A DNA stretch of 41,405 bases from positions 1 to 41,405 of the forward strand of contig CANFLL010000032.1 in NCBI GenBank assembly GCA_947447825.1, read 5' to 3'. Shown here in pieces: positions 577-31,809 of this stretch. The notes under the pieces are model-generated. The model was not told where the DNA came from. It did not search any database and worked only from the letters and a program-made list of their open reading frames with translations. Position 1 is the stretch's first letter. Every line of letters starts with the position of its first letter. Origin of the DNA: Chitinophagaceae bacterium. GTDB taxonomy: Bacteria; Bacteroidota; Bacteroidia; Chitinophagales; Chitinophagaceae. The position numbers and the translations under genes were made by a program.

Positions 577-762
577 GTGACGTCACTTTAAAGTAAAGTG
601 ACGCCACTTTACTTTAAAGTGACACGACTTTACTTTAGAGTGACGCCACTTTACTCTCGAGTGACGCCACTTTACTTTAGAGTGGCACCACTTTGCTTTA
701 GAATAACGTCACTTTACTCTTCGGGAACGCCACTTTACTCTTCGGGAACGCCACCTCATAGC
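577..762. repeat. 21-bp tandem repeat array, 8 full units plus a partial
   Basis: Units start at 577, 598, 619, 640, 661, 682, 703, 724 and (partial) 745. Each unit is exactly 21 bp and has the core GTGACGCCACTTTACTTTA or a close variant. The last two units have switched their tail to CTCTTCG and their head to GGAACG. Changes are nearly all substitutions, so the 21-bp register never slips. Several units contain the self-complementary arms AAAGTGAC and GTCACTTT. Confidence 0.9.
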
Positions 763-837
763 TAATGAAACGCCTTTCTGAAAAGAATTTATGTCTTGGA
801 ACATTAAGATTGTGGGGTAAGTATTGATTGCACAAAA

Positions 838-905
838 ATCCTTGCATTGACTTAAAACCTTAGTGCCCTTTGTTTTTTCCCATTTGTTCTTTGTGGTAAA
901 GCTTT
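838..905. repeat. CTTTGTGG-type interspersed repeat, inverted relative to 1-60
   Basis: The reverse complement of this segment closely matches 1-60: both share the order CCACnAAG, GGGAAAAAACAAAG and CACTAAGG. The two copies face each other across about 790 bp, enclosing the doubtful small frame and the 21-bp array. Confidence 0.6.
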
Positions 906-960
906 TAATGAGTAACCTTTTTCCGTTAATTTAGCCGCCATCTAAAAAAGAAAGATTATT

Positions 961-2679
961 ATGAGTTTAAGTGCAGATATTAAGAAAATTGAACGACGTT
1001 TTGTTCCACAAGATTTCACCGTTACCACTTGGGAAAACTTGGAACCCTTTTTTAAAACATTATTGGAAAGAGCAATAAATAGTAGTGCCGACCTTGAACA
1101 ATGGTTGAAAGATACGAGCGAAATTGAAGCCGTTATTAGTGAAGATGCTTGCTGGAGACAGATAAAAATGACTTGCGACACAACAGATAAAGCCCTTGAA
1201 GAATCATTTACTTTTTTCTGTATGGAGATTCAACCTAAACTGCAACCTTATGCTGATGCGCTAAACAAGAAGTTAATTGCATCGCCATTCACGAAGGAAT
1301 TAGACCAAGAAAAATTCTACACTTATCTGCGTAGTGTGAAGAAAAACATTGATTTGTTTAGGGAAGAAAACATTCCGTTGCAAGCCGAACTAAGCGTGAT
1401 GCAACAACAATATGGTGCAATTGCTGGCAAGATGACGGTAGAGGTAAATGGACAAGAATATACGCTTCAACAAGCAGCTAAGTTTTTAGAAAACGAAGAC
1501 AGATCAATAAGAGAATCTGTTTATAGAAAAATTCAAGACCGTCGCTTGCATGATAAAGCTGCCATGGATGGTTTATATTCTGCATTAATTGCAAAACGTC
1601 ACCAAGTGGCATTGAATGCTGGCTTTGAAAACTATCGTGATTATAAGTTTGTGGAACTTGGTCGTTTTGATTACACCAAAGAAGATTGCTATCAGTTTCA
1701 TGAAGCAGTGAAGCTACACGTGCTTCCTTTGATTGAAAAAATATATAACAAAAAGAAACAAAAACTTGGTTTAGATACCCTGAGGCCATGGGATACAGAA
1801 GCTGAACCAGCAGGCATCACACCATTGAAGCCTTTTACAACTGGTAATGATTTATTGAAGAAATCGGAAGAGTGTTTCGAAAAGTTGAATCCTTTTTTTG
1901 CAGATTGTTTGCGTAAGATGGATGAATTGAAACACTTCGATTTAGAAAGCAGAAAAGGCAAAGCTCCTGGTGGCTATAACTGTCCGCTTTCTGAAAGTGG
2001 CGCCCCTTTTATTTTTATGAATGCTGCCGGACAAATGAGCGATGTAACTACCATGGTGCACGAAGGCGGTCATGCCATCCATTCTTTCCTGTCGCATAAT
2101 TTGGAGTTAAGTGCTTTTAAAGAGTATCCAATGGAGATTGCGGAAGTAGCAAGCATGTCGATGGAGTTGTTTAGCATGAATCATTGGGAGAGTTTCTTTG
2201 ATAATGCCGATGATTTAAAGCGTGCCAAAGAGCATCAATTAGAGCGCACCATCACCATATTCCCTTGGATAGCCATTATTGATAAGTTTCAACATTGGGT
2301 ATATGAAAATCCTACGCATACTGTTGAGGAAAGAACTGCAATATGGACTTCTATCTTGAAAGAGTTTTCTACTAGTGCCATCGATTTCACTGGTTTAGAT
2401 GCGTATAGAGAAATTGCTTGGCAGCGTCAGTTGCATTTGTTCGAAGTGCCTTTCTATTATATAGAATATGGCATTGCACAACTAGGAGCCATTGGTTTAT
2501 GGATGCAGTACAAGAAGAATCCTGAACAAGCATTACAGAATTATATAAATGCGTTAAGCTTGGGTGGAACGAAAACATTGCCTGTTTTGTATGAAACAGC
2601 GGGATTGAAATTCGATCTATCTCCAGATTATATAAAGACATTAATGGAGTTCACCAACGAAGAAATGGAGAAACTGTAA
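961..2679 (+). CDS. M3-family zinc oligoendopeptidase (PepF-like)
   Basis: A 572-residue zinc metallopeptidase of family M3 that hydrolyses short peptides, most likely in the cytosol because no signal peptide is seen. The catalytic motif HEGGH lies at residues 367-371 in the sequence MVHEGGHAIHSF. The helix with EIAEVASMSME (about 392-402) should supply the third, glutamate zinc ligand. The length is normal for M3 oligoendopeptidases (about 560-600). The N-terminal half is the helical substrate-channel domain with no obvious motif. The ATG follows an A-rich leader without a Shine-Dalgarno site, as is usual in Bacteroidota. The thioesterase gene follows 157 bp downstream beyond a palindromic repeat, so co-transcription is possible but unproven. 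Peptide size range and in vivo role are not visible. Confidence 0.93.
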   Translation: MSLSADIKKIERRFVPQDFTVTTWENLEPFFKTLLERAINSSADLEQWLKDTSEIEAVISEDACWRQIKMTCDTTDKALEESFTFFCMEIQPKLQPYADALNKKLIASPFTKELDQEKFYTYLRSVKKNIDLFREENIPLQAELSVMQQQYGAIAGKMTVEVNGQEYTLQQAAKFLENEDRSIRESVYRKIQDRRLHDKAAMDGLYSALIAKRHQVALNAGFENYRDYKFVELGRFDYTKEDCYQFHEAVKLHVLPLIEKIYNKKKQKLGLDTLRPWDTEAEPAGITPLKPFTTGNDLLKKSEECFEKLNPFFADCLRKMDELKHFDLESRKGKAPGGYNCPLSESGAPFIFMNAAGQMSDVTTMVHEGGHAIHSFLSHNLELSAFKEYPMEIAEVASMSMELFSMNHWESFFDNADDLKRAKEHQLERTITIFPWIAIIDKFQHWVYENPTHTVEERTAIWTSILKEFSTSAIDFTGLDAYREIAWQRQLHLFEVPFYYIEYGIAQLGAIGLWMQYKKNPEQALQNYINALSLGGTKTLPVLYETAGLKFDLSPDYIKTLMEFTNEEMEKL

Positions 2680-2689
2680 GAAAAGATTA

Positions 2690-2830
2690 ACCACAATGGT
2701 CACAAGGGTTTACACAAAGAAACACAAAGGAAAATAAATGTGTTTTTTCTTTCTATAAATCTTAGGGTACTTAGTGAAAACCCTTGTGACCATTGTGATT
2801 AATCTTTGTGTTCCTTGTGGTTAAAAAATA
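2690..2830. repeat. CACAATGGTCACAAGGG inverted-repeat element
   Basis: The left arm starting near 2690 (ACCACAATGGTCACAAGGG) is mirrored by its reverse complement near 2780-2800 (CCCTTGTGACCATTGTG). It is followed by a CTTTGTGTTCCTTGTGG tail up to the thioesterase leader. It belongs to the CTTTGTG interspersed family and could form a long hairpin in mRNA. Confidence 0.7.
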
Positions 2831-2836
2831 ATAAAC

Positions 2837-3358: not shown

Positions 3359-3367
3359 TAAGTTAGG

Positions 3368-4323: not shown

Positions 4324-5535
4324 CTAAAACAGCTTCTTCCCTTCCTTAATCATTTTCGCCCTGAGTAATGCTTCCAGATAATAATAATCCGCATAAGGCA
4401 ATGGCGCATCCACTTCGCTATTATTGGGTTTTGCACCTGTGCTATGCAATAGTATAAATCCTCTGCTTTCTCCAATTGGTGAACGATAATTATTGGTGAG
4501 GCTCTCTATCATTTTGTCTGCCGCCTTCTTGTAAATCTTTCCATTTCTACTGTACGTACTCAATTCATACAAGCCCGAAGCCATACATGCCGCTGCCGAA
4601 GCATCCCTTGGTTCGTTAGGAATGTTGGGCGCATTAAAATCCCAATAAGGCACAAGGTCTTCGGGCATTGTTGGATTGTTCAAAATATATCCAGCCACAT
4701 TTTCGGCTTGCTTTAAATACTTAGGATCTTTGGTTTCACGATAGCACATCGTGAATCCATATATTGCCCAAGCCTGCCCTCTTGCCCAAGCAGATTCGTC
4801 AGCATATCCTTGATGGGTAACTTTCTTGATGATAGAATTAGGCTTTGTACTATCATAATCTACTACGTGGTAGCTGCTAAAATCTTTTCTAAAATGGTTT
4901 TTAATGGTAGTATTAGCATGGCTAACGGCCATCTTGTAATAAGTACTATCTCCAGAAAGCTTGGTTGCTTCAAACATCAATTCTAGGTTTAGCATATTAT
5001 CTATAATTACAGGAAAGCTGAATTTAGGCATTGTATCCCACGACCTGAAAGTGCCTACTGTATAGTTAAACCTAGTTGCCAAAGTTTTTGCAGCCTGAAG
5101 TAGCGTGTTTTTATAGGCAGAATCTTTGGTTAATAGATACCCATTTCCATAACTACAATACATCTTAAAGCCCATATCGTGTGTGCCTCCATTATATTTT
5201 TCACGTTGTAAGTTTGCCGTATAAATTGTTGCTTGCTCTGCCCACTTTTTATTGCCTGTGTATTTATATAAATACCAAAGCACCCCCGGAAAGAAGCCGC
5301 TTGTCCACCTAAAAGAAGGCGTTAACACTAGCTGACCATTAGCATCTAAACTTCTAGGGGATACCAATTCTGCCTTGCCATGTTTTGCCGTAGGAATTTC
5401 CCTTAGCATCACCTCTGTTTGTTTTTCTGCATCAGCAAAAACAGTTTTAATGTCTACGTTCTGAGCATTGGCTGATAAAATTAAGCTACTGAAAAGGAGC
5501 ATTAAAAACAGTGAATAGTATTTACTTATTGCCAT
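4324..5535 (-). CDS. GH88 unsaturated glucuronyl hydrolase
   Basis: A 403-residue secreted or periplasmic glycoside hydrolase of family 88. It hydrates and cleaves the 4,5-unsaturated uronic acid left at the non-reducing end of lyase products. An N-terminal signal peptide is evident (SLFLMLLFSSLILSANA, likely cut before Q25). The two family catalytic aspartates fit D120 in GGTHDMGF and D179 in VIIDNMLNLELM. ESAWARGQAWAIYG is the hallmark alpha6/alpha6-barrel motif. It is the last gene of the lyase cluster, 27 bp after the T9SS-sorted PL6 gene, so it is probably co-transcribed. A related GH105-type specificity for rhamnogalacturonyl ends is less likely given the PL6 neighbours. Confidence 0.92.
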   Translation of the reverse strand: MAISKYYSLFLMLLFSSLILSANAQNVDIKTVFADAEKQTEVMLREIPTAKHGKAELVSPRSLDANGQLVLTPSFRWTSGFFPGVLWYLYKYTGNKKWAEQATIYTANLQREKYNGGTHDMGFKMYCSYGNGYLLTKDSAYKNTLLQAAKTLATRFNYTVGTFRSWDTMPKFSFPVIIDNMLNLELMFEATKLSGDSTYYKMAVSHANTTIKNHFRKDFSSYHVVDYDSTKPNSIIKKVTHQGYADESAWARGQAWAIYGFTMCYRETKDPKYLKQAENVAGYILNNPTMPEDLVPYWDFNAPNIPNEPRDASAAACMASGLYELSTYSRNGKIYKKAADKMIESLTNNYRSPIGESRGFILLHSTGAKPNNSEVDAPLPYADYYYLEALLRAKMIKEGKKLF

Positions 5536-5562
5536 TCTGAAAATAAATTAGATTGAAAAGAA

Positions 5563-7677
5563 TTATTTATTAATGATTACCAGATAACTTTCTAGCACGT
5601 TTTGTTTATCAATCAATTGAAGATGATAAACTCCAACAGCATATTCTTTAATAGAAAAAGTGTTTAAGCCCTCATTGATTGTAACGTTCATTAATTGTTT
5701 GCCGCAATTATCTACCAAAACCAATCTTATATTTTTAGGAATCTTATTAGCGTTTACGTTTATTATATCTTTTGCAGGATTTGGGTAAACTGAAATAATA
5801 TCTTTCTTGTTGGTAGCAATTTCAATTACGTTTGAATAATAGAAAGAACCATCCTTGCTAATCATCTTCAATCGATAATAACTCTTCGCTTTAATAGAAA
5901 CAATATTCAGGTTGTAATTCGGTTTTCCATTTGCCAATATAGCGTCTATGGTTGCAAACGAATAGCCATTACTACTACATTCAACTTCATATTTTGATAG
6001 GTCTTTCTCATTGGCAACAGACCAATCTAGCTTGACAATATTATCGGAATAACTTCCTGTAAAACTCAATAACCTTACTGGCAAAGGCACAATTGGCGTA
6101 CCAGCCCCTACTTTAGTACTATCCAACGGAGAAGCCAAGATGTTTCCTGATCCATTTAGTTCAACAGCCCCCACATCGTAAATAGAACTTCGAGTATGAC
6201 CTTGTGCATCCAATCCATTTAAAACAGCAGCATAATCTGCACTATTAAAAGCGGCATCTTTAACCAATGAAGGCGGAGGAAGGATACCATTTGAAATCTT
6301 TCCAAAAGTCAAGGTTTTATTATAAAATCCTGTAGAGTCAGTAACGCCCAATTTAGACGCATTATATAGGTTGCCTTCAGCAAAGTAAGTTACAGGGCTT
6401 CCCGTTCCATAAGTATCTATTAGGACGGCTTGCCCTTTTTTCATTTTAATTAAATTATTGGCTACCGTAACACCATGTGGCTTGTATAACCCTGAAGTAT
6501 CAACCAAGAACCCTACAACTATTCCTGCACCGCCATAGCAATTCACAGTTGTATTGAATGCCACTAAGGCACTATCCGCCGCAAAATATTTAGCAGCAAA
6601 AGCTGGATTAGCCGTATCATTAGAGTTGGTTGAACCATTAAAGAGGATGATTGGACACCTCAACGAGCTTGTGCTATTATAATTACCATCTAGGTTTTCA
6701 AGGTAATTATTAAATACTTTGTGGCCTTTATCTATAATTCTTATGCCATATTGAGTGCTTCTTGCCGTGGTCGTTTTAATAATAAAATTGCCATACACAT
6801 TACAATACCTTCCTTCTCTCAACGTGATACCACCTGCATGATTGCGGATTGTATTGTATCGGTAGGTATTGAAACCTGATTTGTTCGAAATAATTTCGGG
6901 ATCTAACTGTACCCCATCTTCAAACAAATTATACTCAATTACATTGTATCCATCTGTTCTAGAATTCGAACTTGTACCCACCCTAATAACCTCCCCTTCA
7001 TTACTACCCAAATAACCACGTCCTTTAAAATAATTTGAGTCGATAAGGTGATAAGTAGATGTTCCTTTTGCAGGATAATTAGTGCTGTCATACCACACAA
7101 CCACTGTGGGCGATCCGTTGAACTTATTAATAAAAGTGCAATGATCTACCCTGTTATGCGTGCCATAAATTGACACCCATCTATTCAATGTGTCGCCACC
7201 ATTTTTAGTTCCGGTATTGTTGGATGAACCAGTAGAATCGCTGTTATAATTATCGACAGTAATATTATTTATTCTACAATAATGAGCTAATGTTCCGCCA
7301 GCACTCCTAAACTGAATTACGTCATTAGCACCAGAATTTCCATTTGCAAACCTAAAACCTGTAACCAGAATATGCTTACCACCAAACTGCAAGTAAGTAT
7401 TCCCCGTAAACACAACGCCATTAAAGGATTCAGCCTTCAATACTATCCAGTTAGAAGTGGCAGTTCCTTTTTTATTAGTAAAACTAACCTGCCCCCAATT
7501 GTAGCTACCATTAGCAACAATTACGGTATCTCCTGGTAGTGCTGCTCCCATTTGGGCTATTAAATCAGCTTTAGTAGAAACGGTATAATTTGTGGCAAAA
7601 CAGTAAACAGTATTCAGCAACAAGCATATTGCTAATATGCTTAACCTTATTTGCTTAACTGATTTTACCATTATCAT
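5563..7677 (-). CDS. PL6 (alginate lyase/chondroitinase-B-like) with T9SS C-terminal domain
   Basis: A 704-residue secreted polysaccharide lyase. A signal peptide is present at residues about 5-28. Residues about 30-510 form the right-handed parallel beta-helix of family PL6. K266 (in NKSGFNTYRYNT) and R287 (in ITLREG) have the same 21-residue spacing as the catalytic Lys and Arg of chondroitinase B. After a Pro-rich linker (VPLPVRLLSF), a beta-sandwich leads to a type A T9SS sorting domain (VYPNPAKDIINV to the end), so the enzyme is exported by type IX secretion and likely anchored on the surface. It should make the first endolytic cuts for the cluster. Substrate could be alginate, polyMG or a glycosaminoglycan; PL6 subfamily cannot be set by eye. 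Confidence 0.92.
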   Translation of the reverse strand: MIMVKSVKQIRLSILAICLLLNTVYCFATNYTVSTKADLIAQMGAALPGDTVIVANGSYNWGQVSFTNKKGTATSNWIVLKAESFNGVVFTGNTYLQFGGKHILVTGFRFANGNSGANDVIQFRSAGGTLAHYCRINNITVDNYNSDSTGSSNNTGTKNGGDTLNRWVSIYGTHNRVDHCTFINKFNGSPTVVVWYDSTNYPAKGTSTYHLIDSNYFKGRGYLGSNEGEVIRVGTSSNSRTDGYNVIEYNLFEDGVQLDPEIISNKSGFNTYRYNTIRNHAGGITLREGRYCNVYGNFIIKTTTARSTQYGIRIIDKGHKVFNNYLENLDGNYNSTSSLRCPIILFNGSTNSNDTANPAFAAKYFAADSALVAFNTTVNCYGGAGIVVGFLVDTSGLYKPHGVTVANNLIKMKKGQAVLIDTYGTGSPVTYFAEGNLYNASKLGVTDSTGFYNKTLTFGKISNGILPPPSLVKDAAFNSADYAAVLNGLDAQGHTRSSIYDVGAVELNGSGNILASPLDSTKVGAGTPIVPLPVRLLSFTGSYSDNIVKLDWSVANEKDLSKYEVECSSNGYSFATIDAILANGKPNYNLNIVSIKAKSYYRLKMISKDGSFYYSNVIEIATNKKDIISVYPNPAKDIINVNANKIPKNIRLVLVDNCGKQLMNVTINEGLNTFSIKEYAVGVYHLQLIDKQNVLESYLVIINK

Positions 7678-8002
7678 CTACTTTTATTTTTACTCTATAC
7701 ATATTAGTTTCATCACAATCAACCGAGCGATTGGCTTGGAGTGAACTCGGTTCAACCCAATACACCGGCGTACTACCTTGCCGCAAAGGAAAAACAACCC
7801 AATACACCGGGTGATTGGCTTAAAGTGAACTCGGTTCAACCCAATACACCGACGTGCAACCTTGCCGCAAAGGAAAATCAACCCAATACACCGGGTGATT
7901 GGCTTAAAGTGAACTCGGTTCAACCCAATACACCGACGAGAAAAGAAAGACCTGTCAGGTTTAAAAACATATCCCGACTCACCAATCACCACTCACTATT
8001 CA
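7678..8002. other. Intergenic gap between the two PL6 genes
   Basis: The gap is dominated by the 21-bp modular array at 7732-7941, followed by a short CACTCACTATTCACTAC-type direct repeat up to 8010. Both strands are open across the array because 21 is a multiple of three. The encoded QPNTP-rich and RRCIGLNRVH-rich peptides show no protein-like features. Confidence 0.6.
7732..7941. repeat. 21-bp modular array of three unit types, order B-A-C-A-B-A-C-A-B-A
   Basis: Ten consecutive 21-bp units with no gaps. Type A begins CAACCCAATACACCG (units at 7753, 7795, 7837, 7879, 7921). Type B begins TGGCTTAAAGTGAAC (7732, 7816, 7900). Type C begins nACCTTGCCGCAAAGG (7774, 7858). A alternates with B or C, giving an 84-bp higher-order period. 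The six 3' bases of A vary by context: GGTGAT before B, GACGTGC-like before C. Confidence 0.9.
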
Positions 8003-9475
8003 CTACTTCATCCAGCTTGGCCCTACTTCACTTGGTTTAAGTGGATGGCACTCTACACTTTTGGTAACATATTCATCAGCACCAACTCCCTTTAAATCTT
8101 TTGCTATGAATAAACCATTCTTGTCTGTAGAACCTTTTACTTCTTTTTGTGTGATACCCTCATTTTTATCAACCCCTAAAACTTTACCCCCAACAACAAC
8201 ATTTCCTTCAAACTTATTGGGCGCAAATTGTAAAAAGCTAGTAACCGCTTCAGCATCAGGATGAAGTACTTCAACGTTCGATTCGGCACAATTCATTATT
8301 AGGTTATTCTTGATGGTATTATTTTCTGGCAATAAACACATTTGCATTTCTGGCCAATGTTTTTTGTACGAATCACCCAATTGCAAACCCTTACCGTCCG
8401 AGTTGATGATGGTATTATTTTCAAAAACACTATTTTTTACCTGCGCATATTTTGGGGCAAAAAGAAAATCCTTGTTACCCGGACTAGGCTTAAAATCGGT
8501 GGTCAATGCTTTGTCAACATATTCTCCAGCCATCAAAAGCATCCCATTATCCGATACATTACTGATGTAATTATTAACTATGTGCAAGTTTTCGCCAGCT
8601 ACCCTAATGCCGTAAGTACCTTTTCTATTTTCTCCAAAAATAAAATTGCCTTCAAAGGTGTTATTATGTCCTTGCCTGTTGGTAAATCCACCCATTGTTG
8701 CCCTCACGGTATTAAAGCGGACAATATTATGATTCGATTTTAATGAAACAATCTCTACGCCTTCGCCATCTGCATGATCAAAAAGATTATGTTCTACCAA
8801 AAAGAAAGCACCATCATCACTTGGTTTACCCAATTTGCCTGCTCCCCAAATTCTCATAATCTCTCTGCCATTTTGTTTTGCCCAAGGAATATCTTTAAAA
8901 TAGCAATAGGTAGTGGTGTTATGCCTTGCATTTTCTATTGCATTTCCTAATACTGGTTCCACATTATTCTTTCCTTGAAAAAAACAATGAGTCAATAAAT
9001 TATAATTACCCGAAAAGAAGACCCAGTAATATTTGGTTTTAAAATCTGCTGGATTATAGTCAATGATGGCAGTATTGGATACGGTGCAATTGTCTGAATT
9101 AAAATTAATTACTGCGCCCTTAGAAATAGCACCGCCTTTAAACAGAAGGCCATCTACTTTTAGAAATGGCTTGTTGAGTGAAAGCTTACTACTGCCCGAT
9201 AAAATAACTTTCCCAGCAGTTTGAGCTTTAAGGGTAATAGGTGCTGCTTCGGTAGCAGTAGATGAAAAGTTTAGGTCAACATCTTTCCAATCGCCATCTT
9301 TCAGCACAATTACATCACCCGGTTTTGCCGAAGAAATAGCCGTGGCAAGTTCTGCATTCGTAGTAACTACAGTTTCATTTCCAGCAGCAAAACCCAATTG
9401 GATGGATAGCAATATTGCTGCCATCAAACAAAGTTCTTTTGTTTTTTTAATCGTTATACTCAATCTATGTTTCAT
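8003..9475 (-). CDS. PL6-family polysaccharide lyase (alginate lyase/chondroitinase-B-like)
   Basis: A 490-residue second PL6 enzyme without a T9SS tail, so likely periplasmic after Sec export (signal peptide roughly residues 10-31, ending GFAAG). The beta-helix domain fills the protein. Catalytic K246 (in VSLKSNHNIVRF) and R267 (in GFTNRQG) keep the 21-residue spacing seen in the neighbouring PL6. The NGREIMRIWGAGK block near 202-214 is also typical of PL6. It is only distantly similar to the T9SS-sorted neighbour, so the pair probably split the work between surface and periplasm rather than being a recent duplication. The esterase gene ends 34 bp upstream and is probably in the same operon. 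Confidence 0.92.
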   Translation of the reverse strand: MKHRLSITIKKTKELCLMAAILLSIQLGFAAGNETVVTTNAELATAISSAKPGDVIVLKDGDWKDVDLNFSSTATEAAPITLKAQTAGKVILSGSSKLSLNKPFLKVDGLLFKGGAISKGAVINFNSDNCTVSNTAIIDYNPADFKTKYYWVFFSGNYNLLTHCFFQGKNNVEPVLGNAIENARHNTTTYCYFKDIPWAKQNGREIMRIWGAGKLGKPSDDGAFFLVEHNLFDHADGEGVEIVSLKSNHNIVRFNTVRATMGGFTNRQGHNNTFEGNFIFGENRKGTYGIRVAGENLHIVNNYISNVSDNGMLLMAGEYVDKALTTDFKPSPGNKDFLFAPKYAQVKNSVFENNTIINSDGKGLQLGDSYKKHWPEMQMCLLPENNTIKNNLIMNCAESNVEVLHPDAEAVTSFLQFAPNKFEGNVVVGGKVLGVDKNEGITQKEVKGSTDKNGLFIAKDLKGVGADEYVTKSVECHPLKPSEVGPSWMK

Positions 9476-9509
9476 AATTTATATTTAATATTTAGTCTTT
9501 ACTGTAAAA

Positions 9510-10400
9510 TTAGTAGATACCTAACTCCTTCAAAAAAGTCAATATCCTTTGATCCATTACTTTCAATTGATCCTTTGCACCAAGCAAACTATGACCTGCA
9601 TTTGGCACCACCATCAACTCGGTTTTAATGCCAATTTCCTTCAGTTTTTTATGCAACAAATAAGATTCTTCGATAGGAACCGTTGAATCCGCATCTCCAT
9701 GACAGATGAAAATGGGTGGACTCGTCTTCTTTAAATACGTCATAGGAGAAACTGTTTTGGCAAAAGCCTCATCAGTTTGCTTGTCTCCCAACCAGTTTTT
9801 TGCCGAATGACTTTTGCAGCAATATGCCCAAGCCCAAACGTCGGTAATGCCCCATTTGTCGATGATGGCTGCCACTTTCATGTCTTTTACACCGGGACAA
9901 TTGCCATCAAAGCGATGATCGTTTTCTAACAATCCGGTCATCAAAGCAAGGTGTCCGCCTGCCGATCCGCCCATAACCACAATTCTGTTTACATCTATCC
10001 CTAATTCTTTAGCATTCTTTTTAAGATAAGCCAACGCACAGCGGGCATCCTCCACCGCAGCAGGCGCTTTCGCTTCCTTTGTCATCCGATACTCGATATT
10101 GCAAACTAGAAAGCCTTTTTTAAAATACTCACCAAACCCTCCTTGCTGATCCTTACTTCCACCAACCCATCCACCTCCATGAATATTGATGATGGCGGGC
10201 GCAAGATTTTCTGATTTATTGGGAATATACAAATCGAGCTTTTCCTGAAAGTTTGTTCCGCTAGTATAAACCACATCCAACTGCTTGGTGTAGTTAGCCG
10301 GAATAGCAACCGGTTTAAATTTTTTTGCCGTATCAGCAGGCTCTTGCGCCTCTAAAAAACTAGTGGCTACTAAGGCAATTCCAAGAAGTATTTTTTTCAT
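9510..10400 (-). CDS. Secreted alpha/beta-hydrolase esterase (BD-FAE-like)
   Basis: A serine esterase with HGGGW (residues 74-78) as oxyanion-hole motif, nucleophile S146 in GGSAGG, probable acid D238 in HGDADSTVP and H270 in NAGHSLLG. I start it at the ATG at 10400 because this places MKKILLGIALVATSFLEAQ, a good signal peptide, at the N-terminus. The upstream ATG at 10430 lies inside the CTTTGTG repeat and adds ten residues that spoil the signal. Families of this kind remove acetyl or feruloyl groups from plant or bacterial polysaccharides. Here it sits between two lyase genes, suggesting that the polymer carries O-acyl groups. Substrate is inferred from context only. Confidence 0.87.
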   Translation of the reverse strand: MKKILLGIALVATSFLEAQEPADTAKKFKPVAIPANYTKQLDVVYTSGTNFQEKLDLYIPNKSENLAPAIINIHGGGWVGGSKDQQGGFGEYFKKGFLVCNIEYRMTKEAKAPAAVEDARCALAYLKKNAKELGIDVNRIVVMGGSAGGHLALMTGLLENDHRFDGNCPGVKDMKVAAIIDKWGITDVWAWAYCCKSHSAKNWLGDKQTDEAFAKTVSPMTYLKKTSPPIFICHGDADSTVPIEESYLLHKKLKEIGIKTELMVVPNAGHSLLGAKDQLKVMDQRILTFLKELGIY

Positions 10401-10404
10401 TTTA

Positions 10405-10517
10405 TTTATTACATTAAGCACAAAGAACACGAGGGAGAAGACACAAGGAACACAATTTGTAAAATCTTTTCTTTGTGTTCATTGTGATAATATCATAGTG
10501 TCCTTGGTGGTAAACCT
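10405..10517. repeat. CTTTGTG/CACAAAG interspersed palindrome
   Basis: CACAAAGAACACGAGGG on the left is answered by TTTCTTTGTGTTCATTGTG and TCCTTGGTGG on the right. It fills the gap between the alginate-lyase-domain gene and the esterase gene, so any polycistronic mRNA would carry it as a hairpin. Confidence 0.6.
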
Positions 10518-10527
10518 TCATTTATAT

Positions 10528-16723: not shown

Positions 16724-16795
16724 GAAAGAGGTATTTTAGGTTGATAAAAGGTTTTGCTTTTATGAAAACTGCCAGACAGTAACGACACCTTGTAA

Positions 16796-17212: not shown

Positions 17213-17300
17213 AAGTTGAGAGTCAAAAGTCGAAAGTTTAGTGAATAGTTATGTTTATTATTTCAAAGACTTTCGACTTATGACTTATGACTTTCGACTA
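17213..17300. repeat. AAAGTCG heptad repeats, two inverted patches
   Basis: GTTGAGAGTCAAAAGTCGAAA at 17214-17237 (words of 7 bp) faces GACTTTCGACTTATGACTT at 17268-17300. Together they form an imperfect inverted repeat between the giant gene and the PID-CTERM-like gene, possibly working as a weak terminator or processing hairpin. Confidence 0.6.
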
Positions 17301-20300: not shown

Positions 20301-23300
20301 CTACCGAACCAATACCAGCAGTATAAGTGCTACCACCAATTGTAGAAGTACTAGAAGAACCAAAAGCATAAGTAGAACTACCTACGTTTACCGTACAACT
20401 AGAGCCACTATTAAATGTTAGCGTACTAGCATCTACGGAAACTATTGTAGAAGCACCACCAGCTGTACCAACAGTTACTGATCCGTTTATGGTTGCTGTT
20501 GATCCAGAAGCAAAAGCAACGTTTGCAGTTGTTGTAGATAATGAACCATTAATTGCAGCAATAGCTCCAGAATTGAATGTCGCATATCCATTTGGTAATG
20601 TCAAAGCTCCACCAGTATTAATAACTAAAGAGGTTCCAGCCATAAACACCAACCCTGTAGCAGTATTTGAGTGTGTTGTTAAACTACTAGTTCCATCAAT
20701 ATATACATCACCAGTTGTTGAAGCACCTGTTTTTCCTCCATTATCACCGTTGATTGTGATTGTTGAAGTAGAAGAAGTAGAAGCAGACATCGTTACTTGA
20801 GCGCCATTAATAATTCGCAATTGTCCAATAGATAAGTTATTGCTATATTTCAATGTAACTGCTCCAGTAGTAGGTGTAGTTCCACCAATGTTAGTTCCAT
20901 TAACTTCATAAATATCTGTAGAGTTAATGCCAGAAGGTGTTGTACCAGTACCATTTAAAGCAGTATTCCACAAAGTAGTAGCTCCAGTACCCCAACCAGT
21001 TCCATTTTGAACATTACCTGGTGTACCTACCCAATAGTAAGTAGTTGGCTTTTTGATGGTAATAGAACTAGAAGTAACAGGCGTTAAAGAGCCTGAAGTA
21101 AAGGTGATAGTACCAGTTATATCAGTAGCATTACGATTAATAGCTGTGATACCCGTAAAGGTAGCAGCACCACTACTAGCAGCAGCAGTTGTAACACCAC
21201 CCAATGTGAAGTTTAATCCAGTAGCTACCGCAGCAGTAATTGTTGCAGTACTAGTAGTAACGGTATTGCCATAAGCATCCTGAACTACAACAACAGGAGA
21301 CGTAGTAAGCAACACCCCATCTAAACTATTTGAAGCGACTGGCTGAGTAGTAATAGCTAATTTACTTGCAGTACCAGCACCTACAGATTGCGTAATTGTT
21401 CTGGTAGTGTATCCTGTTGCAGCTACTGTGATAGTAACCGTTCCTGCTGTTCTTAAAGCAGTAGAGTGAGTTCCACTATTTGGAATAATGGTAATACCTG
21501 TAGAAGTCACTGTGTAATCTGTATTTTTTGTAAGTACAGTTCCAGCATAAGTAATAGAACCAGTACTCAACAACACACTCTGCCATGTAGCATCATAACT
21601 ACTAAGTGTGTATGGTATTGTATAGTTACCACCAACAGTTGCTCCCGAAGCTGTACCGAATGTTGGTGCAGGATTACTAACAGTTAAGTTACCGATAGCA
21701 AAATCACCAAGAGCAGAGAAGGTAGTTGTAGAAGAAATGCTACCTATAACATTTGCAGAACCCGTTCCACCTAAGTTAGTCCAGTTACCACCACCAATAG
21801 ATTGAGCTACTCTTAAGTTAGTAGCATCAGCCAATGAAATGGTATTGTCATCATCATTTGCAGAATAACTCAACGTAATAGAACCATTGGTTATTGTGTT
21901 TGAAGCTGCAGAAATTGTGTAATATCTTGAAGTAGAAACACCCCCTAATGTACCTCTATTATGATTTGCATTACCAACAGTTGGCACAACGGTATAAGCT
22001 GTAGCTGTGGCAGTGCCTTGTGTGAAGTTTAAAGTCAAAGGCAAATATTCGCTATTCATACCCACAGGGAAACTCAAAGTTTGTGCAAGTGAATTAGCAG
22101 CAGAATATAGTTTAACAGGTCCTGCAATGTAGTTAGTTGCACTCCAAGTAGGTTGCGTTACACCACTGTTTATTGTTAATACCGCAGTGTTAGCAGCAGC
22201 AGTTAATACAGTGCTAGTTTGAGCATACGTATTTGTTACAGTTAATGCATTAGACAAGGTAATACCTGCTGCATTAGACAATGACAAGCCATATACAGAA
22301 CTAAGTGAAGAACTATTGCCAGTAGTTTGTGCAGCAGCACTTACATAAGTGTAAGCAACAACATCTGTGAAAGTTGATGTTCCAGATGGAGCAGTTGTAC
22401 CTGATGTTCCGGCAGTTGTAACAGTGTAGATGTTTCCACCACTTGTTATTTGCTGACCAAGCACATAAACAGTACTAGCAGCCCAAGCAGTAGGCGCAAC
22501 AAAAGTGTATGTTGAAACTGTGCTATTTAAGTTATTACCACCTGTAGTTGCGATAGCTCCCAAACCAGTAGAGCTACCCAATTTAATTTGCGCACCAGCA
22601 GTAGCAGCAGTATTAAAATTGAATGAACCACCACCAGTTATTGTTTGACCAGCAGTGCGTAAATCAGCAATGTAACCAACGTTTAATTGACCACCAGCAT
22701 CAACTACTACACCAGCAACTTTACCATTACCAGCACCACCAGCAACGATGCTACTATTAGCAACGAAGTTGGTACCATTAGGATAAAATTCTGGAATGTT
22801 TAAAACACCCGTACTACCAATATGAAGGAATGAACCTGTGCCAGCACTACCATTATTTGCAATGCTTGTACCTAAACTCATATATCCATTTGCACTTCCT
22901 GCTGCGGATGCGTTAGCGTCGTAAACAGCACCAGAAATTAAACCTGTATTAAATGTTAGTGTACCATTTACATTTAGTGTAAAGTTGATAGGATTGATGT
23001 TCGAGTTAGCACCAGTATAAGGACTAAGTACGCATTCTTGATCCATTGTTACTGTTGCTCCATTATCAATGGTGATGGTACCAGTAGTAACGTTAACGCC
23101 ACCACTTGCATTATCAAGACCTAAGGCAACAGCCGTTCCTTTATTAGCAGAACCTTTGTAGTGTAATGTTACATCGGTAGCTATTTCAAGTGTGGAGCCA
23201 GAAGCATAAACCAACAATTTGTTCATGTCAATAGCACCTTTTCCTGAGTGACCAGCTATGTGAGAAGGATAATCATCAATAATTGTTGTTCCTGCATTTG

Positions 23301-26088
23301 CGGTGAATATTTCAATACCATTAGTAGTTCCACCTGTATTCGTGTTACCAATTACTCCGTTAGCAGAAACTTTAACTGAGGTACCAAACACTATTACCAC
23401 ATTTTTTTGAGAAGCTGCCAATGTTCCATCAATTCCTTTCAATGTACCCTTAACTACATACAAATTATTTGCAGATGCTGTTGTGCTAGAATTTGTTGTT
23501 GAAGTTACTAATGCAGAATTAGATGGTTCAGCCGTGTTTGTAACGGTAACAGAATAACCACCTGCAATCCATACATTATTGGCAGATCCAGGAGAAGAAG
23601 TTGTTGCTGTTAAAGCAGTACCATTCCAAGTACTCCAAGTAGTTGTTCCACTATAATTACCTGTTCCAGTGCTAACAAAATCTCCAGAAGTTAATGAACT
23701 GATTGGGAATGCCATAGCTGTTACACTAGTTACTGCACTCCAAACACTTCCGTGTCTCACATAAACTGCGTAGTTATAGTTAGTAAAGTCTGACAAACTA
23801 GTAACGGTTACGCCAGCGCCAGTGCCCTTATAAACTACAAAACCGCCATTACCATCTGATGAAGAACCAAATGCTGCATTAGCAGTATAGGCACTTCCAT
23901 TTCCTGTAGGGGCTACAATAGTTCCTGTAGAAGCAAGTACTAAAACTTCATCCCAATAATTAGACTGCGTTCCATTAAAGCTTGGGTTTGTCCATGCTAG
24001 CACACTCTGTCCGGATGCATTACTAGCTGAAAAAGCAGTTACAGGTTGCACGCCAGTTGTGGCACTTGTTGATGTGCCTGTTGCAGCCGAAGTGTATTGG
24101 CTACCACTGTATGCAAATACTTGATAATAATAAGTAGTTCCACTAGTAAGCCCAGTTACTTCTACATTACTACCAGTACCCGCAGCTACCAAATAGTAAG
24201 TGTTGCCACCATAAGAATAAGTGGTTGCACTACCCAAAGCAGCATTTGCACCAGTGTAGCTACTTGCAGCACCAGAAGGCACAATAGCAGCACTTGAAGT
24301 ACTTGCAAAAACTAAGATGTTAGTGCTAACTGTTCCCCAAGTAATATTTTGTCTTGTATCTGAGTTATTAGCAACAGCTAAAGAAGTAGGAGTAGAAAGA
24401 TTGGAAACTAATCCACTTAATGTAACCGTTTGGTTAGCGATACCTACAGATGAAATAGTTAATTTGTCACTGGTAAATGGACTATTAGACGCTAAAAGAG
24501 AAGCTTTTAAACGAACAAAAACCTGATTACCGCCAGAGATGCTACTGCTTATAACAGAAGATGCTGGAGTGAAAGTAAGTGAGCTTCCCCAATTTGTAGA
24601 ACCATCTTTAGAAATTTCCCAGTTACTACTATTAGAAACAGTTACGGTAACTGGATTGCTGATTGCACCAGAGTTTACGTAAAAAGATTGCGAAGCAGAA
24701 GGTCCTGATGTACTTTGAACATAAGAAAAACCCGACATTGCTGTCAATGGTGTAATTGGTGCAGTTAGTGTATTAGAGGCAGTAACATTTACTATAGGCG
24801 TGGTCATTATATAGTAATTGTCAAAAATATTAGTGTTAGAAGAGGCTGTAACTTGATGAAAGCCGAAGCTCGTCATAGCACTTCCTGTATAGGTAGCATC
24901 AGCTGATGATGATGCCGTTGCAAGCATGGTAGCTATTGTTGGGTCGATAGTTGCTGTACCCACAACTCCAGATGTGATGTCCGCATGAGAAAGATAGTTA
25001 CCAGCAGATAGTGTCCATATTTTAGTAAACGGATTGTAAGTCACTTTAACACTCACAAAATCTTGCGCTCCTGTTACGCTCGCTATTTGAGCTAAACTTG
25101 TAACAGAACTAGTTGTTAAACCAGAAGTATAATAACCCAACTGAATAGTATTGTAAGTAGTTCCTGGAATGATTGAAACAACATAGCCATTTCCAGTTGT
25201 AAAATTACTACTGGTTGCCGCCAATACCTGAGATATACGAGTTCCAGAGGAAAGTGGTGTTGTACTTTTTGCAGCCCTGATAGTACCATACCAAGTAACT
25301 AAGCCCGTATTATTGGCCAAAGTTGAAGTGAATGGAGAAACTACAGAAGAAGCATTTGTTGGAAAAGAAGCATAAACATAATCAACCGAAGGATTCCCCG
25401 CAACAGCTATTGCCGTTCCGTTTAATAAAATAGATGCACTTGTTCCTGTTGCAGAACCAGTGTATGTAACTGAGGGAGTTCCTCCTGCAGTAATAGTTGG
25501 TGTTGAAGTAGCAGTTCTTGTAAAATTATCAAAAAAGTAAACTGAGTTAACCACACCAGCACCAGAAGTGTAAGTACCACTGTTAGTGAGGCTTCCTGTT
25601 AGGTTAATTGTTCCAGAAGCAGTCATATCGAGTGTGCCTCCCGACTGAATTGTTATAGACGCTGCATTTAGCACACCACTTGCACCAAGGGTTATTTTGC
25701 CCCCACTTGCAATGGTTATTGCACCTATTGTATTTACAACTGATGCATTAATGGTAATAGCATTGCTAACCGTCACACTATTTCCGGCAGCAGGTAACGT
25801 TCCTACACCAGACGTTGACCAAGGAGTTGATCCCGAAGTGGTCGTATTCCAATCTCCAGTAGCAACAGTGGTACTCTGTGCCATTGCGCTCATCGCACCA
25901 ACAGCAAAGAGAAAGATTAGGCTGAATATCTTGTACCAGCCATTCGTGTACTTGTTCTTTTTCATACTTGTTTTTTTGTTATAATCAATAATAGATTCAG
26001 GGGTAACGCCTACTTTATTGGACAAACTTTCGTTTGCCAAAACAGTAAGTTGTGTAGCGGGTGTAAAATTGTTAATCGTGTTCATCAT
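17305..26088 (-). CDS. Giant T9SS-sorted surface protein (2,927 aa)
   Basis: A very large Ser/Thr/Gly/Ala/Asn-rich secreted protein. A signal peptide (YKIFSLIFLFAVGAMSAMAQ) lies at about residues 51-71, so the real start may be the ATG at 25965 (MKKNKYTNGWYKIF); the upstream 41 residues would otherwise be an unusual leader. Then come parallel-beta-like GSGTLTLNSG rungs. Two tandem fibronectin-III-like modules (about 565-680 and 680-800) share a distinctive LVFAST/LVLAST...YTGANAALGS/YTANAAFGS core. Invasin-like modules follow at about 1470-1680, then more beta-strand repeats. A VERYIPKGYRAYRDIAP segment lies near 2291, a beta-sandwich follows, and a type A sorting domain (LYPNPLKGSKVFNV onward, about 2846-2927) ends the protein. 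It probably acts as an adhesin or matrix component. No catalytic motif was found. Confidence 0.88.
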   Translation of the reverse strand: MMNTINNFTPATQLTVLANESLSNKVGVTPESIIDYNKKTSMKKNKYTNGWYKIFSLIFLFAVGAMSAMAQSTTVATGDWNTTTSGSTPWSTSGVGTLPAAGNSVTVSNAITINASVVNTIGAITIASGGKITLGASGVLNAASITIQSGGTLDMTASGTINLTGSLTNSGTYTSGAGVVNSVYFFDNFTRTATSTPTITAGGTPSVTYTGSATGTSASILLNGTAIAVAGNPSVDYVYASFPTNASSVVSPFTSTLANNTGLVTWYGTIRAAKSTTPLSSGTRISQVLAATSSNFTTGNGYVVSIIPGTTYNTIQLGYYTSGLTTSSVTSLAQIASVTGAQDFVSVKVTYNPFTKIWTLSAGNYLSHADITSGVVGTATIDPTIATMLATASSSADATYTGSAMTSFGFHQVTASSNTNIFDNYYIMTTPIVNVTASNTLTAPITPLTAMSGFSYVQSTSGPSASQSFYVNSGAISNPVTVTVSNSSNWEISKDGSTNWGSSLTFTPASSVISSSISGGNQVFVRLKASLLASNSPFTSDKLTISSVGIANQTVTLSGLVSNLSTPTSLAVANNSDTRQNITWGTVSTNILVFASTSSAAIVPSGAASSYTGANAALGSATTYSYGGNTYYLVAAGTGSNVEVTGLTSGTTYYYQVFAYSGSQYTSAATGTSTSATTGVQPVTAFSASNASGQSVLAWTNPSFNGTQSNYWDEVLVLASTGTIVAPTGNGSAYTANAAFGSSSDGNGGFVVYKGTGAGVTVTSLSDFTNYNYAVYVRHGSVWSAVTSVTAMAFPISSLTSGDFVSTGTGNYSGTTTWSTWNGTALTATTSSPGSANNVWIAGGYSVTVTNTAEPSNSALVTSTTNSSTTASANNLYVVKGTLKGIDGTLAASQKNVVIVFGTSVKVSANGVIGNTNTGGTTNGIEIFTANAGTTIIDDYPSHIAGHSGKGAIDMNKLLVYASGSTLEIATDVTLHYKGSANKGTAVALGLDNASGGVNVTTGTITIDNGATVTMDQECVLSPYTGANSNINPINFTLNVNGTLTFNTGLISGAVYDANASAAGSANGYMSLGTSIANNGSAGTGSFLHIGSTGVLNIPEFYPNGTNFVANSSIVAGGAGNGKVAGVVVDAGGQLNVGYIADLRTAGQTITGGGSFNFNTAATAGAQIKLGSSTGLGAIATTGGNNLNSTVSTYTFVAPTAWAASTVYVLGQQITSGGNIYTVTTAGTSGTTAPSGTSTFTDVVAYTYVSAAAQTTGNSSSLSSVYGLSLSNAAGITLSNALTVTNTYAQTSTVLTAAANTAVLTINSGVTQPTWSATNYIAGPVKLYSAANSLAQTLSFPVGMNSEYLPLTLNFTQGTATATAYTVVPTVGNANHNRGTLGGVSTSRYYTISAASNTITNGSITLSYSANDDDNTISLADATNLRVAQSIGGGNWTNLGGTGSANVIGSISSTTTFSALGDFAIGNLTVSNPAPTFGTASGATVGGNYTIPYTLSSYDATWQSVLLSTGSITYAGTVLTKNTDYTVTSTGITIIPNSGTHSTALRTAGTVTITVAATGYTTRTITQSVGAGTASKLAITTQPVASNSLDGVLLTTSPVVVVQDAYGNTVTTSTATITAAVATGLNFTLGGVTTAAASSGAATFTGITAINRNATDITGTITFTSGSLTPVTSSSITIKKPTTYYWVGTPGNVQNGTGWGTGATTLWNTALNGTGTTPSGINSTDIYEVNGTNIGGTTPTTGAVTLKYSNNLSIGQLRIINGAQVTMSASTSSTSTITINGDNGGKTGASTTGDVYIDGTSSLTTHSNTATGLVFMAGTSLVINTGGALTLPNGYATFNSGAIAAINGSLSTTTANVAFASGSTATINGSVTVGTAGGASTIVSVDASTLTFNSGSSCTVNVGSSTYAFGSSSTSTIGGSTYTAGIGSVVFANGSTLTLTKGADIFAGTRNVVSFGTTSSFVYNYTTSTALLIDGHSFGNITLNQTTNPSTPGANGFSCNDLNVNVSTFTLAQTGTVSITGNVTVASGATLNCSPSSSLVVNLNGTTAQTITNNGTLTLGANTTLNVNNTLGVSLGSNLTTLGGLNLTTGNLNVGSNTLTFASYAATSGSLVTTAPNLASSVNGTSIAFTGSGTFSLPASVTSLSSLSNSTGTMNVNSSFTLSGSLTNGAGTISLGSNSISVGAANTVSSNSNLTNNGIITGTGAIIMGAPSGSTSINGTGTISNLTINPATTHTTTIQTGVQSLTGVLIVTKGNLVITPTPGLILKSTSIANTAIVGNVCTGCSITGSVQVERYIPKGYRAYRDIAPQVYNAGSMYSNWQSNGSMTSGSGIFITGASATHADDGYYGANAAAAQPTPASSGLDYSINGASSASYFDNSKATSNWTTITNTTNTNLDAFQGYRVLVRGDRSFNLAKTAIDNIYGYGLRMVNPTTLKATGSLVYGTVTYNTTGVSGTINNAASTTLSTAAALNGTSTTAFSMIANPYASPVMWGTGTSTNSSTTTVWGASTGINGTYWYLDPTSSATGKYIAFNAQSGSSVSGYTSTSSVTSNGIIQPGQAFFIQNSSSASPVVIFNEAAKQTSSTKQAVFGVIAPSSKIYVGLLKKDSASISYTRVDGVAVAFSSVFTNDSYGTQDALKFGNAADNLSIEDKGKSLSIDGRLPATSADVLHLAIGKVSATEYQLAVDASNYISNGLTPYLVDSYKGTSTALTTGSNTVSFTADASVAASFANRFSLAFKPTTLAVNSIVASATLSNKIATISWNTVGEKGVSTFEVEKSTDAKSFTKIGQATAKNTASAAYATTDNSVTATTYYRIKAISQVGTVSYSNVAKVSVTNNQLPITLYPNPLKGSKVFNVAFGNIAAGNYTVSITNVLGQKVQEAAISHTGGNGSHAISINNTIAAGTYSVTIRETASGTIVSQSNLSVN

Positions 26089-26227: not shown

Positions 26228-26404
26228 AGCATTTATTGTATTTGTTCTTCAACCCCTTTTTGACCCTTTTAAGTGTAATTTTTACACGTTTTTTCTAATG
26301 AGGTTTGATTTTAATAAGTGTTCATAAAATTTTCACTTTTAAGGTGCATTGATATGCGTCTCTACATCTATCAATTAATTTGTCCTTTTTTCGCTTCATA
26401 CATT

Positions 26405-26614
26405 CCAAATATGTCTTCACATATACCAAATATGACTTCACATATACCAAATACGTCTTCACACATACCAAATATGTCTTCACACATACCAAATACGTCT
26501 TCACACATACCAAATACGTCTTCACATATACCAAATATGTCTTCACACATACCAAATACGTCTTCACATATACCAAATACGTCCTCACATATACCAAATA
26601 TGTCTTCACATATA
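26405..26614. repeat. 21-bp tandem array, 10 units
   Basis: Ten uninterrupted units from 26405, each CCAAATAyGTCTTCACAyAT plus a final A. They differ only at a few pyrimidine positions (C/T at unit positions 8 and 18) and one GTC to GAC change. It is the most homogeneous array in the window, implying recent expansion or active homogenisation. In every frame it reads as heptapeptide repeats such as SSHIPNM. Confidence 0.95.
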
Positions 26615-26714
26615 CCAATGAAGAAATTTCTAAACCGTTTATTGTTCATCAGTTACTGATGTATTAACACTACAATTATCTTTAACGCCTTAATCTCAAA
26701 AAATTAGTTTTTAT

Positions 26715-30869: not shown

Positions 30870-30889
30870 TATTTCTTTTTTAGCGGACG

Positions 30890-30924
30890 CAAATATAGTT
30901 GTAAGTAATAAGTCGTAAGTCAAA
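30890..30924 (-). promoter_or_regulatory. asnS promoter (-33 TTTG, -7 TATATTTG)
   Basis: On the minus strand TTTG (30924-30921) is followed after 23 bp by TATATTTG (30897-30890), matching the Bacteroidota consensus TTTG/TAnnTTTG. Transcription would start about 15-20 nt before the ATG at 30869. The -33 element is provided by the heptad repeat. Confidence 0.6.
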
Positions 30925-31012
30925 AGTCAAGAGTAACAAAAACTACTTCAATTACATCTTTCAACATCTTTTACCAACTTTCGACTCACGACTTTCGACT
31001 TTCAACTTGGCT
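30899..31012. repeat. AAAGTCG heptad repeats between asnS and the GNAT gene
   Basis: AAGTCGTAAGTCAAAAGTCA (30910-30929) is mirrored by TTTCGACTCACGACTTTCGA and following bases (30980-31008). The patches are inverted and frame a 50-bp AT-rich core. Confidence 0.6.
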
Positions 31013-31033
31013 TCTTTCCACTATTTTTGATTT

Positions 31034-31519
31034 ATGATACGCAATGCTGAACATCGTGACCTGCCCATCATTTTAGAAATAATGAATGAAGCAATACAGA
31101 ACACTACCGCCATTTATGATTATAAAAGCCGCTCGATGGAGTTTGTGGGAGCTTGGTTTGCCAATAAACAAGCTGATAATTTGCCGATAATTGTTTATGA
31201 ACTAGAAGGAAAAGCAGTTGGTTATGGCACTTTTGGGGTATTCAGGGCTTGGGAAGCCTATAAATTCAGCGTAGAACATTCTATATATGTACACGTAGAT
31301 CATCAGGGAAAAGGTATTGGCAAAACATTGTTGACCGCCCTTATTGAAGCTGCTAAAAAAGGTGGCTACCACACCATGATTGGTGGAATAGATGCCGCTA
31401 ACCAAAAAAGCTGCGAGTTTCATGCAAAGTTTGGCTTTGTAGAAGCTGGAAGAATAAAAGATGCTGGCTACAAGTTTGACCGTTGGCTCGATTTAGTTTT
31501 TATGCAACTGATGCTATAA
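31034..31519 (+). CDS. GNAT N-acetyltransferase (phosphinothricin/methionine-sulfoximine type)
   Basis: A 161-residue acetyl-CoA-dependent N-acetyltransferase. The acetyl-CoA pyrophosphate-binding loop is HQGKGIGKTL (Q91 to G96). The N-terminal IRNAEHRDLPIILEIMNEAI, the AYKFSVEHSIYVHVDH strand pair and the C-terminal GFVEAGRIKDAGYKFDRWLDLVFM are typical of the PAT/MddA group, which acetylates phosphinothricin, methionine sulfoximine or related amino acids. The natural substrate is not certain. A TATTTTTG box ends 4 bp before the ATG, so the transcript may have almost no leader. It stands alone between repeats. Confidence 0.9.
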   Translation: MIRNAEHRDLPIILEIMNEAIQNTTAIYDYKSRSMEFVGAWFANKQADNLPIIVYELEGKAVGYGTFGVFRAWEAYKFSVEHSIYVHVDHQGKGIGKTLLTALIEAAKKGGYHTMIGGIDAANQKSCEFHAKFGFVEAGRIKDAGYKFDRWLDLVFMQLML

Positions 31520-31620
31520 ATTATTACCACAATACAGGCGTTTTACCAATCTGAATACGAAAGTAAAATACAGAAAATACTCACGTTTTTACAATGCCAC
31601 TTTCATTTTTGGGCAAACCG

Positions 31621-31809
31621 CTCACCCGAGTCATGTCATGACTCAAGTGAGTCGTGACATGACTCACTTGAGCGGAAGATAAATTCAACTGAGTTATGAA
31701 GCCGCTTGCCTTAGTCGTGTCACGACTCAGGTGAGTCATGACACAACTCACCTGAGTCACTCCGTCACTCAGGTGAATTTATCTTCGACTCAAGTGAATC
31801 ATTGGGTGT
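31621..31809. repeat. 21-bp tandem array with nested palindromes, 9 units
   Basis: Units start at 31621, 31642, 31663, 31684, 31705, 31726, 31747, 31768 and 31789, each exactly 21 bp. Units open with the self-complementary core CTCAnnTGAGTC, and several continue with a second palindrome-like GTCATGAC or GTCGTGAC. Divergence between units is high, but the length never changes. Confidence 0.9.

Follow-up and report, generated by a model that had tools for sequence, protein, structure and literature searches.

Intergenic minisatellites with a unit held at 21 bp in a Chitinophagaceae genus, and phased binding of dimeric proteins as a possible basis

Why should tandem arrays that lie in different intergenic regions of one bacterial genome, and that differ in sequence, share one unit length? 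The question is raised by a 41,405-nucleotide stretch of Chitinophagaceae DNA, here called the window, which is contig C32 (CANFLL010000032.1) of a 4.65-Mb draft genome in 187 contigs (GCA_947447825.1). An original prediction, made from the letters of the window, had described five arrays with units of exactly 21 bp, unrelated in sequence and placed only between genes, and had proposed that something measures this length. In this genome, the unit of such arrays is fixed at 21 bp (two turns of B-DNA) and at near-multiples of it, with a sequence that varies by family. We tentatively prefer, with somewhat less than even confidence, the explanation that the arrays are genus-wide intergenic minisatellites in which a 21-bp unit is maintained for the phased binding of dimeric proteins.

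Tandem Repeats Finder (TRF) was applied to 40 stretches of 20 kb together with the window (841,405 bp), and 90 arrays were obtained at a score of at least 70. Arrays with a period within 0.5 bp per unit of a multiple of 21 were assigned to the class, except for five heptamer-like arrays, which were moved to a heptamer class. On this basis, 56 of the 90 arrays are near-multiples of 21, 16 are of the heptamer type and 18 are of other kinds. Before the heptamer-like arrays were moved, the best period was 21 bp in 22 arrays, 42 bp in 14, 63 bp in eight, 84 bp in five and 126 bp in one (50 of 90), and a further 11 had off-by-one periods of 41 (six), 62 (two), 64, 83 and 85 bp (one each), which gives the 61 from which the five were removed. 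The other periods are 20, 23, 24, 30, 32, 88 and 108 bp, each represented once, and longer ones. The unit lengths, whose comparison had been proposed as a check of the prediction, have a peak at 21 bp that stands out, and the broad distribution that was to count against it did not occur. The density is 66.6 class arrays per Mb, or about 300 per genome by extrapolation.

Twelve congeners, which like this genome are drafts (130 to 710 contigs), were sampled in 27 stretches (443 kb); 17 of their 46 arrays belong to the class (38.4 per Mb), which is present in nine of the 12. The single array from other genera of the family (12 stretches, 240 kb) lies outside the class. Among 80 named relatives (1.44 Mb around one gene), two of 31 arrays were assigned to it (1.4 per Mb), one of them a 103-bp unit admitted by the tolerance only. 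Judged by asparaginyl-tRNA synthetase, the nearest named relatives include metagenome-assembled genomes of Chitinophagaceae, with a best protein identity of 88%. In these samples, the 21-bp class is a property of the genus and is sharply set at 21.

The claim that length is kept better than sequence is borne out by this period peak, by the identities at different lags and by a deficit of insertions and deletions (indels) described below. Tests of curvature, flanks and strand were made on arrays of about 100 bp or longer (50 arrays, 49 without one heptamer-like array, and 48 with full flanks). In 49 class arrays, the mean identity was 0.61 at lag 21, 0.67 at lag 42 and 0.61 at lag 63; all remaining lags between 8 and 69 gave 0.22–0.33. 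For the same 49 arrays, which had been preselected for periods near multiples of 21, the unit length per ~21 bp was 21.003 with a standard deviation of 0.237.

Location, strand and grouping were investigated with 66 arrays that had a TRF score of at least 70 and a listed period (20–22, 41–44, 62–65, 83–85, 88 or 126 bp), drawn from 140 clusters with a score of at least 50. By blastn (1e-5, 40 bp), they fall into 50 groups, of which 10 have two or more members; the largest, with five, is heptamer-like. The predicted intergenic placement held, inasmuch as 56 of the 66 lie between genes called with our own crude gene finder and eight of the other 10 lie in short open reading frames (ORFs) made largely of the array, which leaves two in longer ORFs. 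Gene finders may therefore call ORFs that consist of array only, and assembly from short reads may fail at these arrays through fragmentation or collapse. Neighboring genes are divergent at 18 arrays, tandem at 26 and convergent at seven, compared with 63, 186 and 34 among gaps of at least 150 bp, i.e. a mild divergent surplus with no strong tie between arrays and gene orientation.

Within the window, three of the five predicted arrays are true 21-bp arrays (577–754, 26394–26618 and 31621–31809), whereas the other two proved to be an 84-bp repeat (7722–7938) and a repeat of two copies only (16685–16725); no strand is assigned to any of them. The five unit sequences are indeed distinct, but "unrelated" is incorrect for the genome as a whole: the three true arrays belong to families dispersed over 5, 10 and ~40 places. 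The array at 577–762 (577–754 by TRF), here F577, has a 21/63-bp unit, ~8.5 units and the core GTGACGTCAC, CACTTTACTTTAAAGTG; the family gave 15 matches at five places, and three copies have in common an edge of ~18 bp (559–576 in the window, left of the array) that contains CAGTTTCTGAA or the complement of this word. The array at 26394–26618 (F263) consists of 10.7 units of 21 bp by TRF, with CTTCACATATACCAAATATGT and alternating half-sites ACATAT/ATATGT, and gave 11 matches at 10 places. The array at 31621–31809 (F316) keeps a 21-bp register over ~9 strongly diverged units around the palindrome TGACTCA-SS-TGAGTCA; TRF detects only the pieces 31621–31672 and 31709–31759, the remainder being recognized by reading the DNA, and an inverted pair was also read by eye inside this one array. 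At least 93 matches were found to the F316 family, at no fewer than 40 places as judged by eye (40 of 48 candidates scored). With its short flanks, the window copy (267 bp, 31603–31869) matches contig C43 at 75% and C11 at 79%, and C13 within a longer match of 89%. At 7722–7938 (F7722), TRF reports 2.6 copies of an 84-bp (4 x 21) repeat with 93% matches; there is a partial 42-bp similarity, and the lag-21 identity of 0.27 is at chance level, so that "units of exactly 21 bp" is unsupported here and the figure of 21 arises solely as a quarter of 84. This array matched only itself, at one place in the genome. The pair at 16685–16725 (two 21-bp units, 85% matches by TRF) is weak taken alone.

An arrangement of this kind is already described in the literature, contrary to the remark in the original prediction that no description was known to its author: a constant size of 20–21 nt, a variable sequence and two turns of the helix are all reported in PMC8161180. 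In that account by Subirana and Messeguer, Bacillus genomes have arrays of two constant sizes, 20–21 and 52 nt, which vary in sequence, are mostly non-coding and species-specific, and fall into several families per genome, with a characteristic short sequence in the majority of repeats; the 20–21 nt class occurs in Cyanobacteria, Actinobacteria and others as well (PMC8161180). Nucleoid proteins, small RNAs and the two helical turns are among the ideas offered for the constant size, and in the available text the question why many arrays of one length have many sequences is raised without an answer (PMC8161180). The present arrays are alike in their constant 20–21 nt unit, generally non-coding nature, several sequence-unrelated families per genome, species specificity and a characteristic short sequence in the majority of repeats, and by the features tested they belong to this class. 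Unlike those described, they occur in a Bacteroidota genus and have higher-order units of 41–42, 62–63 and 83–84 bp; these units, the dyad statistics, the measured indel deficit and the presence of part of one family in transposon-like elements go beyond the available text of the published account. Species specificity was found in the one family tested, F316, whose palindrome (at most one mismatch) is almost private to this genome: it has 71 sites per strand here and none in nine of the 12 congeners, while the remaining three have 2, 2 and 3. A J Bacteriol survey by the same authors from 2020 reportedly distinguishes classes of 22/44 and 52 nt. Our literature search found no report of the class in Chitinophagaceae, although this survey, which was outside the comparison, may contain one, and no measured dyad excess or indel deficit for such arrays.

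Members of a family occur at scattered places in the genome. Some copies lie in ~700-bp elements that resemble miniature inverted-repeat transposable elements (MITEs), and others have the array alone in common; a mechanism of dispersal can at most be inferred from this. In the available text of PMC6749651, dispersal of non-coding satellites is treated as rare in prokaryotes. Of the ~40 F316 places, 20 were fetched. Fifteen of these belong, by alignment, to a single element type of ~700 bp, and 12 copies are complete (641–720 bp, both ends). The inverted ends, TTCTACTTTGACA[G/C]ATTA adjoining TA, form a sharp limit of the homology. The elements are MITE-like and, to judge from their size, would lack a transposase; examples with the 21-bp array in the middle are L185:311-1010 (contig C40), L184, L195 and L190. 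The end pattern (at most two mismatches) matches the genome 57 times, 29 times forward and 28 times in reverse, and a reversed control matches it five times; no autonomous partner was seen among these matches, a search by gene not having been made. The five fetched places outside this alignment comprise L176–L178 with flanks of the window type, L186, which shares the near flanks, and L179 with neither, as judged by eye.

These copies provide the best length test, since the same 12 carry array and flanks, so that the genus supplies an internal yardstick that length really is held. The comparison used the 12 complete copies among the 15 aligned (L180 and L183 have no recognizable right end and L192 stops at a contig end), each copy being set against its successor in the list and no other (12 pairs). 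The arrays measure 167, 188, 209 or 230 bp, and each of these lengths leaves a remainder of 20 on division by 21. Of 104 core-to-core steps, 102 measure 21 bp, and the remaining two (11 and 10) are neighbors in one array, even though adjacent units differ at ~6 of 21 bases. In the flanks of the 12 pairs, 5723 aligned sites contain 907 substitutions and 31 gap events. When this rate is scaled to the ~2470 array sites, ~13 gap events would be expected, and no off-register indel was found. The F316 arrays in these elements thus change by whole units, which may be due to selection or to unit-wise recombination; because the latter could yield the same result and the copies are related, the deficit shows constraint and not function.

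A further clue, and a testable one, is dyad symmetry at a spacing of two helical turns. Units were compared with shuffles of their own letters, with exclusion of heptamer-like units and of those shorter than 18 or longer than 130 bp. Symmetry exceeded the shuffles (p ≤ 0.05) in 26 of 56 class arrays of this genome and 10 of 17 of the congeners, but in only three of 35 comparison repeats (two of nine and one of 10 other-period arrays of this genome and the congeners, respectively, and none of 16 in named relatives). In the window, the units of F577, F7722 and both F316 pieces are significant, and those of F263 and 16685 miss this threshold. Furthermore, inverted repeats are denser in arrays (0.0159 per bp) than in the remaining intergenic DNA (0.0045), and the spacing between their centers is a multiple of 10.5 bp in 87 of 112 cases, counted among the 15 commonest values; the excess in density and spacing follows partly from repetition combined with symmetry. 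A self-complementarity scan for one long hairpin per array was dropped, as central registers are favored by construction.

Each unit may accordingly be read as a dyad-symmetric site for putative dimeric DNA-binding protein(s). To act jointly as a phased filament or cluster, neighboring dimers would have to occupy one face of the helix at intervals of two turns. The family-specific sequences might mean that spacing and dyad are recognized more than letters, or that there is one factor per family. Cooperative binding of dimers would be the simplest account because it covers the fixed length, the many sequences, the dyads two turns apart and the lack of any sign of an RNA-strand preference. Of the three ideas in the original prediction, that of two helical turns, a hypothesis still, fits best on the strength of the 10.5-bp spacings. 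A bolder form, in which a sequence-tolerant, genus-specific protein system coats hundreds of arrays as phased nucleoprotein blocks and reads dyads two turns apart, seems unlikely to us; if true, it would be a bacterial analogue of satellite heterochromatin, with spacing rather than sequence as the signal.

Several observations weigh against phased dimer binding. Significant dyad symmetry is absent from 30 of the 56 arrays of this genome, the F263 consensus of the window included, and the lag-21 identity falls below 0.40 in 12 of 37 higher-order arrays. Helical phasing alone would also permit units of ~31 and ~52 bp, yet the sample has one of 30 bp and one of 32 bp (8-mers) and none near 52 bp, and a few arrays have periods of 22, 44 or 88 bp. 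AA/TT phasing at 10.5 bp reached p ≤ 0.05 in eight of 49 arrays, where two to three are expected, and because this is only slightly above shuffles, intrinsic curvature is little supported. In addition, repeated unit-wise recombination could hold the register without function, the MITE copies not being independent.

Register-keeping recombination is a serious rival. A mutation or recombination process with a fixed step, the second idea of the original prediction, such as the filling-in of staggered nicks 21 nt apart or a unit-wise conversion by which off-register copies are purged, would make or keep 21-bp units in functionless arrays; we regard this as possible, though on balance doubtful. It would explain why one length is common to many unrelated sequences and why MITE copies differ by whole units. 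Isolated two-copy repeats of at least 80% identity outside arrays number 14 at 21 bp, three at 20 bp and none at 22 bp (841 kb), with two, four and one in controls (1.68 Mb). However, several of the 12 21-bp pairs inspected resemble fragments of known arrays or of heptamer runs, and a stricter scan (at least 85%, more filters) gave no isolated two-copy 21-bp repeat, a result of low power because its filters also missed the window pair at 16685. Small as both scans are, the pairs fit decayed arrays better than fresh duplications. Moreover, a pure step mechanism would not predict dyad symmetry.

The repeats could instead be sites used in transposition, the arrays being inner parts of MITEs with a spacing set by the transposase, which appears unlikely. 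The F316 elements with inverted ends favor it, as does a close parallel, by analogy and with no claim of homology, in BrickBuilt of Porphyromonas gingivalis, a MITE that contains a minisatellite (23-nt unit, one family, 19 copies; PMC4596501). Like the F316 elements, BrickBuilt is found in Bacteroidota and has short spacer-less repeats flanked by a leader and a tail, which end in inverted repeats; it is dispersed and intergenic, has copies with or without leader and tail, and expands and contracts by whole units (PMC4596501). According to the available text, leader-to-tail forms without the 23-nt repeat were not found, and the authors consider the possibility that an autonomous element needs the repeat (PMC4596501). 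The present arrays differ in having 21-bp units of many sequences, most of them outside any recognized MITE, and a BrickBuilt-type layout, i.e. an array between flanks with terminal inverted repeats, was found for part of F316 only. In pairs of F263 copies, homology stops at about the array edges, so that these share the array alone. Around 48 arrays, inverted ends gave no general excess: there was one clear outlier (score 69), an array with a copy of another dispersed repeat on either side. Two others scored 12, which corresponds to the 99th percentile for shuffled pairs of flanks. This test is weak, since an array within a known MITE scored only 11; as far as it goes, a MITE origin of all arrays finds no support.

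Repetitive extragenic palindromic (REP) sequences with RAYT transposases are similar in being short, dispersed, intergenic palindromes in clusters (PMC3733652), whereas the present arrays have an exact 21-bp head-to-tail phase and are not mainly downstream of genes. REP palindromes are 20–40 bp long and carry GTAG or CGTC tags; in a count made for the window, the pattern GTAG-N14-CTAC has one site, outside arrays (0.31 expected). Y1_Tnp gave five matches in the genome, four of them over the cut-off, and a 21-bp array is present at one of the five fetched loci, L197 on contig C103, where the Y1-transposase-like match (C103:3694-3924) and an F263 array (C103:4386-4570) are separated by ~0.5 kb.

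Transcription into strings of small RNA hairpins, as suggested for Bacillus, where the 52-nt arrays of B. coagulans are transcribed (PMC8161180), is in our estimate quite unlikely here. Short hairpins can be formed by many units, and in 21 of 77 arrays with a score of at least 60, the unit has a stem longer than in shuffles (p ≤ 0.05). On the other hand, among 23 arrays between genes of one direction, the sense fold was the more stable in 12, i.e. there is no strand difference, and because sense is not more stable than antisense, the RNA reading gains no support. The mild divergent surplus in gene orientation does not favor it either, and an Rfam scan of the window gave no match. A role of the arrays as promoters was also rejected, with no match in 10.9 kb of arrays to a Bacteroidota promoter consensus (~1.8 expected), a comparison that is correspondingly weak.

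An artefact of short-read metagenome assembly at k = 21, a common first k-mer length, is suggested by the draft state of the genome and its congeners, but it is very improbable: an assembler would not invent the ~6 differences in 21 bases between neighboring units, the same families occur in other contexts and forms of 41, 62 and 83 bp exist. Bacillus genomes also have 20–21 nt arrays (PMC8161180). Selection for a frame-neutral length in arrays that code or come to code, the third idea of the original prediction, is scarcely credible and is rejected in spite of the divisibility of 21 by 3 and of array-spanning ORFs at 26318–26659 and 7690–7992, because units of 41, 62, 83, 85 and 88 bp would break any frame, 18-bp and 24-bp units account for none and one of the 90 arrays, respectively, and most array ORFs are largely the array itself.

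Arrays of heptamers (GACTTTT and GACTTAT types) form a second repeat class of the genome, with examples in the window at 17268–17299, 30977–31008 and 32016–32043. A heptamer origin of the 21-bp unit (7 x 3) was rejected: the 7/14-bp arrays are separate, and only one of 50 arrays of ~100 bp or longer is heptamer-like within its unit. A dispersed repeat of ~100 bp (GTAACTATTCAGGG...AACACAAGG) lies beside some arrays (L096:7187-8222, L105:12360-12420), and the two arrays bearing it have 62 and 63 flank-only matches.

The genes that neighbor the arrays of the window are ordinary and encode an M3 peptidase, proteins of the chondroitinase-B and alginate-lyase families, a met-zincin, a GNAT acetyltransferase and pyruvate:ferredoxin oxidoreductase, besides leuB. 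The 84-bp array lies inside a one-strand cluster (4324–11736) for GH88-like, two chondroitinase-B-like, esterase-like and alginate-lyase proteins, which is possibly involved in the breakdown of an acidic polysaccharide. A protein of 2927 amino acids (17305–26088) has a type IX secretion system sorting tail and a match to the hemoglobin-interacting domain of Shr-like heme-binding proteins. A four-helix-bundle protein of the TIGR02436 family is encoded at 39274–39639, between leuB and a citramalate/isopropylmalate-synthase-like gene.

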